Part shown: positions 18,603 to 23,836 of the stretch, one piece after another
Numbering within the stretch: the stretch's first letter is position 1
Layout of the letters: every line of letters starts with the position of its first letter
Origin: Winogradskyella aurantiaca
GTDB taxonomy: Bacteria > Bacteroidota > Bacteroidia > Flavobacteriales > Flavobacteriaceae
Reading direction: 5' to 3'
DNA length: 64,000 nt
NCBI RefSeq assembly: GCF_003362725.1
Contig: NZ_QKTV01000005.1
Coordinates: 1 to 64,000 of the forward strand
The notes under the pieces: generated by a model
What the model was told of the DNA's origin: nothing
What the model saw: the letters and a program-made list of their open reading frames with translations, nothing else
Databases searched by the model: none
Program-made: the position numbers and the translations under genes

Positions 18603-18687
18603 GCGCACGTGGCGGAATTGGTAGACGCGCTGGCTTGAGGGGCCAGTGACCGTTTAGGTCGTGGAAGTTCGAGTCTTCTCGTGCGCA
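18603..18687 (+). tRNA. tRNA-Leu (anticodon GAG)
   Basis: 85-base class II tRNA. Acceptor GCGCACG pairs with CGTGCGC. The anticodon arm CTGGC/GCCAG encloses TTGAGGG, giving anticodon GAG. A long variable arm (TGACCGTTTAGGTCGT) follows, then a T arm with GTTCGAGTC. The discriminator is A and CCA is not encoded. Confidence 0.95.
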
Positions 18688-18736
18688 CTTTCTCAATTTT
18701 CTACATAATTTTTTGATAGTAGGTATCCTGGCCAGA

Positions 18737-18769: not shown

Positions 18770-18809
18770 GTTAATTATAACGCACTTCTCACTATTATAA
18801 TTAACTTTG
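18770..18809 (+). promoter_or_regulatory. Likely operator and -7 box of the carotenoid operon
   Basis: A perfect inverted repeat GTTAATTATAA (18770-18780) / TTATAATTAAC (18795-18805) with a 14-base spacer overlaps TAACTTTG (18802-18809), a match to the TAnnTTTG -7 box 21 bases before the regulator start codon. The -33 region at 18779-18782 has no TTTG, as may be expected for a regulated promoter. The repeat is a natural candidate for binding by the adjacent MerR-family protein (inference). Confidence 0.6.
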
Positions 18810-18830
18810 TTTAACCATTTATCGAAATAA

Positions 18831-19730
18831 ATGAACAACATAAAAAATAAGTTTAGCATTAAAGACCTTGAAAACCTTACAGGTATAAAGGCACATACCA
18901 TAAGAATTTGGGAGAAACGCTATAACCTATTGACCCCAAAGAGAACAGATACCAACATTCGTTATTACGACCTTTCTAACTTTCAAAAACTATTGAATGT
19001 CAGCTACCTAAATAGTAACGGTTACAAAATATCTAAAATAGCCACGTTGGATGAACATCGTATTCCTGTTTTAGTTCGAGAAATTGCCGCTCAGACGAAC
19101 ATTGAGTCACACGCATTGAATTCATTTAAACTGTCAATGCTAAATTTCGATCAGGTACTGTTTTACAACACCTATGAGGCCTTACTAAAAGAACGCAGTT
19201 TTGCCGAGATTTTCAGGGATGTTTTTATTCCATTACTAACTGAAATAGGACTGCTTTGGCAAACTAATACGATTACACCTGCACACGAGCATTTTATCAC
19301 CACATTTATTAGGCAAAAAATTCTAATTAATACCGAAAGGATTCAGGCTAAGGCCGCTCAAAGTTCACATAAAACTTTTGTCCTGTATTTGCCAGACAAT
19401 GAAATCCATGAATTGGGGTTGTTATTTATAAATTACATGGTAATCAAAGGTGGGAATCACTCCATCTTTTTAGGTCAAAGTGTACCTATAGATAGTCTTA
19501 AAGACTTGTTGAATTATTACGATAATTTAGTGTTTATATCCTATTTCACCATTCAACCGGATAAAGAGTCCATAAATGGTTATATTAAAGAATTTCATAA
19601 AGAAATTCTTAATAATAAAAACGCTGAATTCTGGATTCTTGGAAGAATGCTAAACAGCTTGAATTTAGATGTCTTACCTAAGCAAATAAAAACCTTCAAT
19701 TCAATTGATTCGCTCCTAGAAAATTTATAA
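18831..19730 (+). CDS. CarH-like MerR-family regulator with B12-binding domain
   Basis: 299 residues. The N-terminal MerR helix-turn-helix (about 8-75: FSIKDLENLTGIKAHTIRIWEKRY) binds DNA, and the rest matches the helical-bundle plus Rossmann B12-binding region of CarH/LitR photoreceptors. Diagnostic motifs are present: W143-x9-E153-H154 (adenosyl-group pocket) and E191-I-H193-E-L-G196 (ExHxxG, with His as lower cobalt ligand). The residue after the Trp, His in Thermus CarH where it ligates cobalt after light exposure, is Gln144 here. In known systems the dark adenosylcobalamin tetramer represses carotenoid genes and light disrupts it. The stop codon abuts the crtI ATG, so it heads the crt operon. 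Confidence 0.9.
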   Translation: MNNIKNKFSIKDLENLTGIKAHTIRIWEKRYNLLTPKRTDTNIRYYDLSNFQKLLNVSYLNSNGYKISKIATLDEHRIPVLVREIAAQTNIESHALNSFKLSMLNFDQVLFYNTYEALLKERSFAEIFRDVFIPLLTEIGLLWQTNTITPAHEHFITTFIRQKILINTERIQAKAAQSSHKTFVLYLPDNEIHELGLLFINYMVIKGGNHSIFLGQSVPIDSLKDLLNYYDNLVFISYFTIQPDKESINGYIKEFHKEILNNKNAEFWILGRMLNSLNLDVLPKQIKTFNSIDSLLENL

Positions 19731-21185
19731 ATGACCAAAAGTATTTCTATAATTGGATCTGGTTTTTCCTCGCTGTCCGCAGCATGCTATTTAGCAAATA
19801 CAGGCAATAACGTAACTATATTTGAAAAGAACGAAACAATTGGAGGGCGAGCGCGTCAATTAATCAAAGACGGTTTCACGTTTGATATTGGGCCTAGTTG
19901 GTATTGGATGCCTGATATTTTTGAAAAGTTTTTTAACGATTTTGGTAAATCAACAAAGGACTACTATCAGTTAGACAAATTAAGTCCGGCCTATAAAATC
20001 TTCTTTAAAGATGAGGTGATTACAATTGGTGATCATATGGATCAAATTTGCGAGGAATTTGAGCGTATTGAATCTGGTAGCTCCAGGCCTCTGCGACAAT
20101 TTATTGCTAAAGCTCAGGAAAATTATAATATAGCTATCAATAAAATAGTACTTAAACCTGGTATTTCACCTTTTGAATTAGTTACCAAAGAAACGGTTAC
20201 CCGCGTAGATCAGTTTTTTAAAACTATAAGTTCAGAAGTTAGAAAGAATTTCAAAAATCCAAAGCTCATTTCTACTCTTGAATTTCCAGTCTTATTCTTA
20301 GGGGCTAAACCTTCAAATACACCCTCTTTTTACAGCTTCATGAATTTTGCTGATTTTGGCCTTGGTACATGGCACCCTAAAGGCGGAATGTACGAAATTG
20401 TAAAAGCTATGGGAAGCTTAGCGAAAGAGTTGGGAGTAACTATTAAAACCAACGCCAACGTGGAAGAAATCTTGGTTGAAGATGGCATAGCCAAAGGATT
20501 AAAGGTTAACGGGGAAGTAATAACATCGGATATTGTATTAAGTGGTGCAGATTACCACCACACTGAAACATTATTGAAAGAAAGCGATAGACAGTATTCA
20601 GAGGAGTATTGGCAAAAAAGAACCTTCGCTCCTTCCTCATTATTATTCTATGTAGGTTTTAATAAAAAAATTACTGGCGTAGAGCACCATAATTTGTTTT
20701 TCGATACCGACTTTGAATTGCATGCCGAAGAAATTTATGATCATCCCAGATGGCCTAAGGAACCCTTATTCTATGTGAATTTTCCCTCTGTTACAGATGC
20801 AAGCATGGCACCTGATGGTTGTGAAGCCGGTTTCTTTTTAATCCCAATAGCTCCAGGACTAGAAGACACAGAAGCCTTAAGAGCCCAATACTTTGATATT
20901 ATAATTGACAGATTGGAAGCAAGAATCGGTGAGAGTGTAAAAGATGCAATCCTATTTAAAGAATCCTTTTGTGTCAATGATTTTATCGAAGCCTATAATT
21001 CTTATAAAGGTAATGCCTATGGTATGGCAAACACACTTAGACAAACTGCTTTTTTAAGACCTAAATTAAAAAGCAGTAAAGTGAGAGATTTATTTTTCAC
21101 GGGGCAATTAACGGTTCCAGGACCTGGAGTTCCACCTTCATTAATTTCAGGAAAATTAGTGGCAAAATTGATAGATAACAATTAA
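19731..21185 (+). CDS. crtI: Phytoene desaturase
   Basis: 484-residue FAD-dependent CrtI-type desaturase/isomerase that converts phytoene to lycopene at the membrane. The dinucleotide-binding fold SIIGSGFSSLSAACYLANTGN with FEKNETIGGRA, the CrtI-typical GPSWYWMPDIFEKFF, and the C-terminal FTGQLTVPGPGVPPSLISGK are diagnostic. It begins immediately after the regulator stop (TAA then ATG) and precedes crtB by 17 bases. It is distinct from the second, CrtD-like member at 35605-37098. Confidence 0.95.
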   Translation: MTKSISIIGSGFSSLSAACYLANTGNNVTIFEKNETIGGRARQLIKDGFTFDIGPSWYWMPDIFEKFFNDFGKSTKDYYQLDKLSPAYKIFFKDEVITIGDHMDQICEEFERIESGSSRPLRQFIAKAQENYNIAINKIVLKPGISPFELVTKETVTRVDQFFKTISSEVRKNFKNPKLISTLEFPVLFLGAKPSNTPSFYSFMNFADFGLGTWHPKGGMYEIVKAMGSLAKELGVTIKTNANVEEILVEDGIAKGLKVNGEVITSDIVLSGADYHHTETLLKESDRQYSEEYWQKRTFAPSSLLFYVGFNKKITGVEHHNLFFDTDFELHAEEIYDHPRWPKEPLFYVNFPSVTDASMAPDGCEAGFFLIPIAPGLEDTEALRAQYFDIIIDRLEARIGESVKDAILFKESFCVNDFIEAYNSYKGNAYGMANTLRQTAFLRPKLKSSKVRDLFFTGQLTVPGPGVPPSLISGKLVAKLIDNN

Positions 21186-21202: not shown

Positions 21203-22042
21203 ATGAAATCCATATTTGACAATGTTTCTAAGGCCTGTAGTAAGTTGGTAACCACCTCTTACAGCACCTCTTTTTCTATGGCTACAAAAATGCTTGCAGA
21301 TAGTATTCGCCAAGATATTTATAACATTTATGGATTTGTGCGCTTTGCTGATGAGATTGTGGATACCTTCCATGATTACGATAAAGAATTTTTATTCGAG
21401 AAATTTGAACAAGACCTAAGCGATGCCCTTGAGCATAAAATAAGTTTGAACCCAATTTTAAATTCATTTCAAGAAACCTATCATAAGTATCAGATAGATA
21501 AGCATTTAGTTGATGCTTTTATGAATAGTATGCGCTTAGATTTACACAAAAAAGACTACCTAACTGAGGAAGAGTATAAAAATTACATTTATGGTTCTGC
21601 AGACGTAGTTGGGTTAATGTGCTTAAAAGTGTTTGTCAAAGGTGATCAACAAAAATATAACACATTAAAAGACAGTGCCATGAGTCTTGGCTCTGCCTTC
21701 CAGAAAGTCAATTTCCTAAGAGATCTTAAAGCAGACTATGAAGATTTGAGTCGTACGTATTTTCCAAATACAGATTTATCTCAATTAGATGAAAGGTCTA
21801 AACAAGCCATCATAAAAGATATAGAATCTGATTTTGAAAAAGGCCTTCAAGGAATTAAGCAACTACCACTTGAAGCAAGGTTTGGGGTATTTATGGCCTA
21901 CAGATATTACAATAAGCTTTTAGAAAAACTAAAGAGAACTCCAGCACTGGAAATCAAATCTACGCGTATTCGTGTTCCTAACTACAAGAAAGTGGAACTA
22001 TTGACGCGTAGTTATGTGAAATATCAATTAAATTTGCTCTAG
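21203..22042 (+). CDS. crtB: Phytoene synthase
   Basis: 279-residue squalene/phytoene synthase that joins two geranylgeranyl diphosphates. The two Asp-rich magnesium-diphosphate sites are DEIVDTF (about residue 51) and DLKADYEDL (about 175). YSTSFSMAT and GSAFQKVNFLRDL are further family signatures. GGPP synthase is not in this window and must lie elsewhere. It sits between crtI and crtZ. Confidence 0.95.
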   Translation: MKSIFDNVSKACSKLVTTSYSTSFSMATKMLADSIRQDIYNIYGFVRFADEIVDTFHDYDKEFLFEKFEQDLSDALEHKISLNPILNSFQETYHKYQIDKHLVDAFMNSMRLDLHKKDYLTEEEYKNYIYGSADVVGLMCLKVFVKGDQQKYNTLKDSAMSLGSAFQKVNFLRDLKADYEDLSRTYFPNTDLSQLDERSKQAIIKDIESDFEKGLQGIKQLPLEARFGVFMAYRYYNKLLEKLKRTPALEIKSTRIRVPNYKKVELLTRSYVKYQLNLL

Positions 22043-22055
22043 AAATTTTTATCGG

Positions 22056-22502
22056 ATGCAAACTCTACTTTGGATTCTTATATTCCTGGTAACTTTTTTT
22101 ATAATGGAATTTAATGCGTGGTTCACACATAAATATATCATGCATGGATTTTTATGGAATGTTCATCGCGATCATCATCACAAGGACCATGATAGTTGGT
22201 TCGAGAGAAATGATCTCTTTTTCATTTTTTATGCCGTAGTTAGTATGTTTTGTTGGTACTTATGGGGTGAGCATAATATTTGGTTCTGCTTGCCTATTGG
22301 AATTGGTATCATGGCCTATGGTGCCGCCTATTTTATCGTACATGATATCTTTATCCACCAAAGATTCAAATTCTTAAGGAATATTGATAATAAATATGCT
22401 AGAGGAGTCCGACGCGCTCATAAAATACACCATAAGCATCTTGGTAAGGATAAAGGTGAGAACTTTGGAATGCTCATCGTTCCCTTTAAATATTTTAAAT
22501 AG
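22056..22502 (+). CDS. crtZ: Beta-carotene 3-hydroxylase
   Basis: 148-residue membrane di-iron hydroxylase of the fatty-acid-hydroxylase superfamily that adds 3-OH to beta-ionone rings. All His clusters are visible: HKYIMH, HRDHHH, HDIFIH and HKIHHKH, set between four hydrophobic segments. It is the last gene of block one, 13 bases after crtB, and its final eight bases overlap the end of the convergent thioredoxin-like gene. Confidence 0.95.
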   Translation: MQTLLWILIFLVTFFIMEFNAWFTHKYIMHGFLWNVHRDHHHKDHDSWFERNDLFFIFYAVVSMFCWYLWGEHNIWFCLPIGIGIMAYGAAYFIVHDIFIHQRFKFLRNIDNKYARGVRRAHKIHHKHLGKDKGENFGMLIVPFKYFK

Positions 22503-23064
22503 GCTCATCAAGTAGTTCATCCAATAAGGCTCTAATCTTTTTAGAATTCCAATCAACAGCACCAGTTTTTTCAACCTTTATATTTCCCTTAGAATCTATA
22601 ATTAGGGTTTTTGGAATGGACTTACCGTATATTGGTTTGGGAATTGACTTTGGTCTGTACACTAAAAAATCAAACCCCTTTGCTTCTTTAAACCTGTTGG
22701 TCTTTTCAAAGGGTTCATTGCTGACCATCAAAAATATAACCTCATCCTTATAATTGGAATGAAGTTTTTGAATACTGGGCATTTCGGCAATACAAGGAGG
22801 GCACCAAGTTGCCCATAGATTTATAAAAATGACTTTATTCTTTAATTCGCTACCTCTAATTTCAGTTCCGTCTTCAGCAATAAGAACCATTTCATCGAGG
22901 TTAGCAGCCTTAACATCATTTTCTATTGTCACCCAATTAATTAGACTAAATGTCTGATTTAAATGAATTTGAATAGGCAATCTTAACTGAGGCACAAGAA
23001 GAATAACCACAAGTGCTACCCAAAGCCCATATTTCTTAATTAACTGAAGAAGTTTAGGCAACAT
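22495..23064 (-). CDS. TlpA-like membrane-anchored thioredoxin-family protein
   Basis: 189 residues with one N-terminal membrane anchor (LWVALVVILLVPQLRLPI) and a periplasmic TlpA/ResA-type thioredoxin domain with the redox motif WCPPC (near residue 94) and cis-Pro region KSIPKTLIIDSKG. It probably reduces disulfides or helps cytochrome c maturation in the periplasm. Its ATG lies within the last 11 bases of the upstream Crp-family gene, so the pair is co-translated. Confidence 0.9.
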   Translation of the reverse strand: MLPKLLQLIKKYGLWVALVVILLVPQLRLPIQIHLNQTFSLINWVTIENDVKAANLDEMVLIAEDGTEIRGSELKNKVIFINLWATWCPPCIAEMPSIQKLHSNYKDEVIFLMVSNEPFEKTNRFKEAKGFDFLVYRPKSIPKPIYGKSIPKTLIIDSKGNIKVEKTGAVDWNSKKIRALLDELLDEPI

Positions 23065-23731
23065 TCGTTTGTAATAAGCGTATTTCTTTACGATTAAAGG
23101 TAATTAAATTTTCTGCCTTCAGTTCATTTAAAAGGACGTTCAATGTAGGACGTGAAACACCAATTAAGGACGCAATATCTTTTTGCGTATAAGGATGCTG
23201 TATCACATGGTCTCCAGTTTTATGGCAATCATAACCATACTCTTTACACAATTCGTCTAAAAATTCGAGCAAACGGGTCTTGGAATCTTTAAACAAAAGT
23301 ATTTGAAGTCGTCTCTCCAGACGTCTCAATTTAAGCCCAATAAACTTGTAAATTTTAATACTCAAGGATTGATTATCACGCATTAAGTCTTGAAGTGTTT
23401 CAACACCAACCGGACAAATAGATGTTTTATTATCAATTGACTGAGCAAACTCGTCTCTAGTTTTACTACCAAGAATGGCATGCTCACCAAAAATCTCACC
23501 TCGCTTAAGAATGGCTTTTACAACTTCGGTACCATCTTCGTTATAATAACCAATCTTAACTTTACCCTTCTCGATAAGGTATACTTTATTGGCTGCATCT
23601 TCTGTAAAGTAAATGTACTCTTGCTTTGGATAAGCATTGAATTCATGCTCAGTTTTATATGTCTTAAACTTGTGCGGACACAAGAGTTTGAAGAGATTTA
23701 CCTCTTCAAATACCCAAATTTTATTCATCAT
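23054..23731 (-). CDS. Crp/Fnr-family transcriptional regulator
   Basis: 225 residues from ATG 23731 (a second ATG follows at 23728). A start further upstream at 23812 is open but would cross the aconitase terminator, so I reject it. It has a cyclic-nucleotide-binding-like beta roll (about 20-140; GKVKIGYYNEDGTEVVKAILKRGEIFGE) and a C-terminal winged helix with recognition helix TQKDIASLIGVSRPTLNVLLNEL. No Fnr-type cysteine cluster is visible, and the ligand is unknown. It overlaps the TlpA-like gene, which may be its target or partner. Confidence 0.9.
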   Translation of the reverse strand: MMNKIWVFEEVNLFKLLCPHKFKTYKTEHEFNAYPKQEYIYFTEDAANKVYLIEKGKVKIGYYNEDGTEVVKAILKRGEIFGEHAILGSKTRDEFAQSIDNKTSICPVGVETLQDLMRDNQSLSIKIYKFIGLKLRRLERRLQILLFKDSKTRLLEFLDELCKEYGYDCHKTGDHVIQHPYTQKDIASLIGVSRPTLNVLLNELKAENLITFNRKEIRLLQTNVA

Positions 23732-23779
23732 TGCATTGATTAGTTGTCTTTGGGTCGTAATTCCAATACAATTCCTTAC

Positions 23780-23810
23780 AAAAAAACTCCTGGTGTCTGC
23801 CAGGAGTTTC
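23780..23810 (-). terminator. Intrinsic terminator after aconitase
   Basis: On the minus strand AAACTCCTGG / CCAGGAGTTT pairs perfectly over 10 bases with loop CAGACA, followed by a T run. It separates acn from the Crp-family gene. Confidence 0.9.
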
Positions 23811-23836
23811 AATAAAATATGCGATTAAAGTCTTAC

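Follow-up and report, generated by a model that had tools for sequence, protein, structure and literature searches.

A CarH-like regulator with glutamine at the cobalt-ligand position and a predicted inverted operator at the carotenoid operon of Winogradskyella aurantiaca

Among the described systems nearest to the regulator analyzed here is CarH/LitR of Thermus thermophilus (TtCarH), with which it shares a MerR domain carrying an RxWE(K/R)RY helix, a four-helix bundle with a Wx9EH motif, a cobalamin Rossmann domain with an ExHxxG motif and a crt gene neighbourhood. The published CarH operator repeat reads nAnnTnnACAn (PMC8156234), and residues of the TtCarH pocket are numbered W131, H132, E141 and H177 (PMC10442372). 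The H132A variant of TtCarH ends in a hydroxylated Co(III) state (352 nm) and is mostly tetrameric in light, where an earlier report instead had disassembly (PMC10442372).

The His132 position is variable among described proteins, being Gln in SasPcob, Arg in CtMerR and Tyr in AbDPcob. Four signature-bearing proteins that were assayed all bind adenosylcobalamin (AdoCbl) and photoconvert, and a survey ties the Trp/Glu-His adenosyl pocket to photoactive domains (PMC11796333). The CBD of the photocobilin SasPcob resembles the W. aurantiaca protein in its Gln and differs in being joined to a biliverdin-binding domain and in lacking a MerR domain. Without biliverdin SasPcob is a monomer in dark and light, while with biliverdin it passes from dimer to monomer (PMC11796333), and its light structure has a water/hydroxide ligand and no large CarH-like domain shift (PMC10979010). 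CtMerR of Chloracidobacterium likewise combines a MerR domain with a CBD lacking His132, although with Arg rather than Gln, and its tetramer dissociates to monomers on illumination (PMC11796333). CarA of Myxococcus xanthus is also a MerR-B12 repressor of crt genes and has palindromic operator elements; unlike the protein described here it is without the Wx9EH Trp and is B12-independent (PMC9304148, from which the distinction between CarH and CarA used here was taken).

A 'MerR' gene occupies the same place ahead of crtI in the flavobacteria Nonlabens and Sediminicola, where the available portions of the reports merely list it, with cobalamin, light and operator undiscussed (PMC11855829, PMC4732338). 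Carotenoids are light-induced in Chryseobacterium, for which car or lit genes were reported as not found (PMC7064467, available text). Proteorhodopsin, retinal-synthesis, cryptochrome and photolyase genes of Dokdonia respond to light, as summarized in PMC9040609, whose available text names no photoreceptor, and strain PRO95 is described without a regulator in that of PMC3587595.

The regulator gene and its predicted cobalamin pocket

The window, that is the whole stretch of 64,000 nucleotides that was analyzed, holds the regulator gene and the carotenoid genes as follows.

18831–19730 (+): CarH-like MerR/cobalamin-domain regulator, 299 aa, ORF from ATG to stop; Pfam, alignment and fold
19257–19262 (+): codons of W143 (19257–19259) and Q144 (19260–19262), the latter at the Thermus CarH His132 position by alignment
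19287–19292 (+): codons of E153-H154, adenosyl contact motif; sequence and alignment
19401–19418 (+): codons of E191-x-H193-x-x-G196, H193 being the predicted lower axial ligand; sequence and alignment
19731–21185 (+): crtI, CrtID-type phytoene desaturase, starting at the base right after the regulator stop; NCBIfam
21203–22042 (+): crtB, phytoene/squalene synthase family; Pfam
22056–22502 (+): crtZ-like ORF, no family match above cut-off

The regulator matched MerR_1 (E 2.2e-15) and B12-binding_2 (E 1.1e-9) in Pfam. The crtI and crtB proteins exceeded the cut-offs of NCBIfam CrtID and Pfam SQS_PSY, respectively, while nothing in Pfam or NCBIfam scored above cut-off for the crtZ-like protein, whose name rests on gene place and on an earlier, sequence-only reading of this DNA. 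That reading had placed the regulator at the head of a crtI-crtB-crtZ operon and was right in this, as all four genes lie on the plus strand. The carotenoid-gene neighbourhood by which a CarH is recognized is accordingly present, and 140 loci, 135 of them Gln-type, have crtI immediately behind the carH-like gene and in the same orientation. Behind the operon lies a CRP/FNR-family regulator ORF (cNMP_binding and HTH_Crp_2; 23054–23812, minus strand). In Thermus the ldrP regulator gene follows carH, and ldrP belongs to the CRP/FNR family according to the reference list of PMC7064467. A tRNA-Leu (gag) gene lies immediately 5' of the regulator gene (18603–18688, plus strand), and a tRNA-like sequence, recognized by shared strings, precedes the gene in roughly 16 of 131 upstream stretches of relatives.

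A phmmer search of solved structures returned T. thermophilus CarH/LitR (3whp, 5c8d; E ~4e-13). In the alignment W143, Q144, E153-H154 and E191xH193xxG196 stand opposite Trp, His, Glu-His and ExHxxG in CarH, which we take to be residues 131, 132, 141/142 and 175–180 of the Thermus protein, and the CarH-like pocket residues proposed from the sequence were thereby borne out. Across 209 homologues (this protein included) the pocket is nearly invariant, with Trp at 143 in 206, Glu at 153 in all 209, His at 154 in 201, Glu at 191 in 196 and His at 193 in 201, so the match is more than chance. The protein has the MerR DNA-binding domain, four-helix bundle and cobalamin Rossmann domain of a CarH, the bundle motif Wx9EH (W143, E153-H154) and the lower axial ligand motif (D/E)xHxxG (E191xH193xxG196), and the Trp loss that marks CarA was not found, W143 being kept.

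In other respects the protein departs from TtCarH. Besides Gln144 for His132, it has Ile192/Ser217 where TtCarH has its Arg-Asp dimer pair, and it lacks both the GxxH signature of the literature and the complete classical motif with GG, Asn190 taking the place of the GxxH Gly (N190xxH193) and Leu270-Gly271 that of GG. The Asn190 and Leu270-Gly271 changes went unmentioned in the sequence-only reading. Pfam PF02310 gave no match to this protein or to any of 50 clade members at E 0.01, and the score against the NCBIfam CarH equivalog was 68 bits, below its cut-off of 400. As 127 of 154 Gln-type members also carry Asn at the GxxH Gly, published mining based on IPR006158 and GxxH may, we infer, have overlooked this clade.

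An AlphaFold model built with 50 sequences (mean pLDDT 89.2, pTM 0.81) matched the dark TtCarH domain 5c8e_F with Z 17.5 and an rmsd of 2.7 over 196 residues, followed by SasPcob (8j2w, Z 16.5), CtMerR (8jbs, Z 16.1) and light-exposed TtCarH (5c8f, Z 14.7); rows within 1 Z unit were regarded as tied. The top row, 5c8d_D, had Z 17.9 and an rmsd of 20.6 because its two domains are turned. A PduO-type adenosyltransferase is encoded in the organism's own genome and in 40 of the 41 homologue-bearing genomes compared to 13 of the 19 without a homologue (p 0.003), a contrast inflated by small genomes among the negatives; one genome (G008) has the regulator and lacks the enzyme. Two CarH-like proteins (L059 and L207) have Asn and Ser, respectively, for the lower-ligand His with Trp and Glu-His kept, and are candidate B12-independent members on these residues.

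Residue 144 among the homologues

Three sets supplied the homologues: 60 relatives including the organism's own genome, 41 of which matched at E 1e-10; 395 phylum genomes, of which 89 matched at 1e-20 (10 weaker match rows being left out); and the best 80 of 593 named relatives, a set that leans to close kin and has no Dokdonia record in it. Two contigs titled as Bifidobacterium breve and Klebsiella pneumoniae MAGs (L130, L132) carry the flavobacterial regulator at 56–57% identity and are probably mislabelled or mixed bins.

Alignment with Thermus CarH confirmed that Gln144 occupies the position of the cobalt-ligating His132, as the sequence-only reading had it. That reading had named another His in the role of His132 as a finding that would speak against it; such a residue was looked for and not found. 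Within the cobalamin domain of 150 distinct Gln-type homologues His exceeds 95% at H154 and H193 alone, with H152 at 84% and H94 at 69%. The His after the Trp that characterizes the bis-His photocycle of TtCarH is thus lacking, and no other bundle His is invariant. H152 was considered as a replacement ligand and judged no stand-in, being His in 126 of the 150, Gln in 13 and Asn in 11. In non-Gln homologues position 152 is mostly Gln (37/55), and the joint change at 144 and 152 is confounded by ancestry.

The ligand position had been described as changed. The Gln is real, but it is no deviation of this one protein, its clade having Gln almost throughout. When a tree was built with residue 144 masked, the protein fell in a clade of 72 rows (SH-aLRT 99), 70 of which have Gln and the exceptions His (L053) and Leu (L136); this was a quick tree of 138 rows thinned from 209 plus outgroups, with SH-aLRT support only and long-branch warnings. 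Among 205 distinct proteins (this one included) 150 have Gln144 and 55 another residue, His in 2 of these. In the even phylum sample Gln144 was observed in 47 of 88, comprising 36/36 in the organism's own family and 11/52 in other families, the remainder having Leu, Met, Arg, Ile or others, with His in 1 of 88. The named set (best 80 of 593 relatives) has Gln in 79 of 80, and as it consists of nearest kin the even phylum sample is fairer for frequencies. Six plasmid-borne homologues have His (Thermus brockianus), Gln (Allorhizobium), Arg (Caballeronia), Glu (Azoarcus and Eleftheria) and, in Persicobacter, His in a protein without the EH and ExH motifs. With its 70 Gln, one His and one Leu the clade forms a natural series for the role of His132. 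As natural Gln and Arg variants are photoactive without bis-His ligation, a light adduct different from that of TtCarH, which the sequence-only reading had suggested, is plausible by analogy and has precedent; for the Gln144 protein we would predict an aquo/hydroxo light state.

A predicted operator and its occurrence in the family

Two conserved elements were located at the carH promoter.

18802–18809 (+): TAACTTTG, matching TAnnTTTG, which we take to be the Bacteroidetes −7 box consensus; box and extension conserved in 108 of 134 loci at 17 nt 5' of the start
18807–18838 (+): predicted operator TTGTTTA-N18-TGAACAA, right half over the start codon; conserved in relatives

The inverted site TTGTTYA-N18-TRAACAA thus overlaps both promoter and start codon. 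Upstream of Gln-type carH genes with adjoining crtI (134 loci, the window excluded) TAnnTTTGTTYA was found in 112, in 108 of them at exactly 17 nt from the nominal start, as compared to 4 of the 19 remaining Gln-type loci and 1 of the 55 non-Gln loci. The window itself has 96 TAnnTTTG strings, two of which continue with TTTA or TTCA. The right half is constrained inside the coding sequence: all 121 loci with Asn2 encode it as AAC, while AAC accounts for 1132 of 3143 Asn codons gene-wide and for 15 of the 40 Asn codons in second position of other ORFs in the same loci. Sixteen loci have a nominal ATA start directly preceded by an ATG codon, and 15 of these retain TAAACAA. The two-sided site was present in 108 of 135 Gln-type loci with adjoining crtI (104 with N18, 4 with N19), 5 of 19 other Gln-type loci and 3 of 55 non-Gln loci, its spacer core being near random (pairwise identity 47% versus 40% shuffled). 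The core of its right half, TnnACA, is that of the CarH repeat nAnnTnnACAn. The arrangement, inverted with an 18-bp spacer, is unlike the tandem 11-bp repeats of the TtCarH operator, and no peak at multiples of 11 was seen around the conserved element.

Two other candidates were set aside. The window has a perfect 11-bp inverted repeat, GTTAATTATAA-N14-TTATAATTAAC, at 18770–18805, just 5' of the −7-like box; as an operator it was dropped since it was the best repeat in none of the 60 relatives listed. The one-sided motif TAnnTTTGTTYAAC gave 7 genome matches against 4 for the reversed control, several of them in genes, and the two-sided site was preferred. In 22 gapped Bacteroidota loci outside the flavobacterial clade an ECF-sigma-like ORF, identified by eye, lies between carH and crtI (L054, L056, L059, L189–L195, L197, L201, L203, L205, L208, L209, L211, L213–L215, L219, L220); the 5 of 22 checked by Pfam all had sigma-70 regions 2 and 4. 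The adjoining of carH and crtI without a sigma gene, together with a site over the −7-like box, suggests direct crt control in place of such a cascade.

The 3.1-Mb genome of W. aurantiaca has five exact sites and none of the reversed pattern.

Site 1: before carH-crt
Site 2: between a fasciclin-repeat gene and a divergent gene with a product MORN-like by eye
Site 3: one base before a DUF3050 gene
Site 4: before a small membrane-protein ORF
Site 5: before an aldehyde dehydrogenase gene

In 37 genomes of the family 86 sites were found against 12 for the control. These divide into 75 (control 7) in 24 genomes with the regulator of the clade, 8 (control 1) in 5 genomes with other carH-like proteins and 3 (control 4) in 8 genomes without any homologue, 2 of which have sites. 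One genome (G009) has the regulator and no exact site, and one with sites (G024) has a Thr144 homologue belonging to another clade. By coordinates, a second site lies right behind carH toward crtI in at least 10 genomes (G008, G011, G012, G016, G018, G023, G026, G032, G033, G035).

Neighbours of the sites were surveyed in 40 fetched stretches and at four own sites, the listed sites of G010 (C14), G015, G019, G022, G027 and G036 (C12) being left out. Fasciclin genes adjoin sites in at least 12 of the genomes so covered, 10 with a PF02469 match there and two (G007, G024) by eye. Other neighbours were a photolyase (G017), an epimerase-family gene (G018), and in G033 a fatty-acid-desaturase-family (crtW-like) gene, a GHMP kinase and a divergent proteorhodopsin/blh pair. 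A gene TetR-like by eye recurred (L285, L298, L318, L322), some sites stood beside genes without light connection or of no assigned function (L284, L300, L306) and one lay inside a longer ORF (L308). A short conserved protein starting MILDTTxT or similar is encoded behind the site in L305, L310 and L316.

Of 199 family genomes 52 have a match to blh (PF15461), 50 of them scoring above cut-off, and 30 blh promoters from these, including that of W. aurantiaca (G000), were scored for the site. Ten had it exactly, 8 with one mismatch and 12 with 2 to 4 mismatches, versus 0.1 in shuffles. At most one mismatch was seen in 18 of 26 genomes with a regulator homologue and 0 of 4 without (p 0.018, relatedness ignored). 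A null set of 669 other promoters, drawn from 103 loci, gave 4 that reached the same threshold, one of these four genes being fasciclin-like by eye. Comparing spacings 8–30, 18 loci were found at spacing 18 and 0–5 at any other. These values come from fixed stretches of up to 400 bp (30/30 loci, spacing 18 only), which are quoted because some predicted gene starts were misassigned; scoring from predicted starts covered 28 of 30 loci, 17 of which had no more than one mismatch when spacings of 18 and 19 were both allowed. The G033 site was already known before the test. In W. aurantiaca the proteorhodopsin gene is divergent to blh and the site between them is degenerate, with 3 mismatches, so judged from the site control of proteorhodopsin by the regulator is doubtful in this organism. 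Fasciclin promoters had the site in 9 of 25 genomes with the regulator and 0 of 5 without, shuffles giving none, a contrast that is not significant (p 0.29) and not independent, as the pattern search had previously turned up the sites of G008, G036, G033, G035 and G016. Since the genomes are related, Fisher and binomial values are optimistic throughout.

Proposed mechanism, alternatives and meaning

The computed fold, pocket, conservation, DNA site and co-occurrence of site and regulator are best explained by an AdoCbl-dependent repressor, relieved by light via a water-ligated state, that controls a photoprotection and phototrophy regulon. We assign this a probability of roughly 0.6; binding of AdoCbl, binding of DNA by this protein, repression, relief by light and the light-state ligand are what we infer. 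In the dark H193 would serve as the lower ligand of bound AdoCbl, whose adenosyl group would be held by W143 and E153-H154, and the loaded protein would oligomerize and sit on TTGTTYA-N18-TRAACAA sites, covering the −7 box and the beginning of its targets, foremost its own carH-crtI-crtB-crtZ operon. Light would break the Co-C bond and, because residue 144 is Gln, leave aquo/hydroxo-Co(III) with H193 retained rather than a bis-His state. Loss of the adenosyl group would loosen the oligomer and free the promoters, among which the fasciclin genes and the proteorhodopsin/blh promoter would also be counted in many relatives. The regulator would thereby probably turn on carotenoid genes in daylight, plus proteorhodopsin in many relatives. 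As TtCarH H132A is mostly tetrameric in light, release without His132 needs another route. Against this explanation speak the changed dimer pair, NxxH and LG, the PF02310 miss and the low CarH equivalog score, as well as the lack of tandem repeats, the degenerate blh site of W. aurantiaca, the regulator-bearing genome that has no exact site, the sites in some genomes without the regulator, those beside genes of no light connection or inside an ORF, and the non-significant fasciclin contrast.

The changes at the dimer interface and in the signatures (Ile192/Ser217, NxxH, LG) would also suit a light-independent cobalamin sensor that binds AdoCbl and represses crt according to B12 supply, with light no signal in vivo, a purely cobalamin-sensing variant having been raised in the sequence-only reading too, and any B12 photoreceptor is in principle also a B12 sensor. 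This is unlikely given that the Trp/Glu-His adenosyl pocket tied to photoactive domains (PMC11796333) is retained, that the Gln-type SasPcob is photoactive (PMC10979010) and that the predicted targets include fasciclin, proteorhodopsin/blh and one photolyase gene. That the site belongs to some other regulator, the carH-like gene being merely a target, is rather improbable: sites do occur in two of the eight homologue-free genomes and in the one with an other-clade homologue, but their numbers track presence of the regulator, the blh promoters follow it (18/26 vs 0/4, p 0.018, relatedness ignored), the half-site core is that of the CarH family and the regulator's own promoter bears the site in 108 of 135 loci. 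We regard as very improbable a B12-independent repressor of the CarA kind, using its cobalamin domain just for dimerization or for partner proteins. The inverted site is nearer to the palindromic elements of CarA than to CarH tandem repeats (PMC9304148), while CarA has lost the very Trp that is kept in 206 of 209 homologues here, alongside H193 in 201 of 209.

CarH itself, its non-His variants (PMC11796333) and a 'MerR' gene before flavobacterial crtI (PMC11855829, PMC4732338) are already in print. New here is the DNA side, namely the inverted operator site; operator and regulon also go beyond the sequence-only reading. Among the open-access papers listed by literature searches, no title or abstract beginning dealt with a CarH-type regulator of flavobacterial proteorhodopsin or with a TTGTTYA-N18-TRAACAA operator. 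More tentatively than the light-relieved repressor itself, and at somewhat less than even odds, a B12 photoreceptor fixed across the Flavobacteriaceae, with a Gln-type light state lacking bis-His ligation and an inverted operator of its own, may join proteorhodopsin phototrophy, retinal synthesis and carotenoid synthesis in marine flavobacteria and explain the reported light-responsive expression of proteorhodopsin in strains such as Dokdonia. The sites point to a candidate regulator for light-responsive genes, to the DNA it would recognize and to a set of possible targets. If the proposal is true, abundant marine bacteria would have their use of light coupled to the supply of B12.
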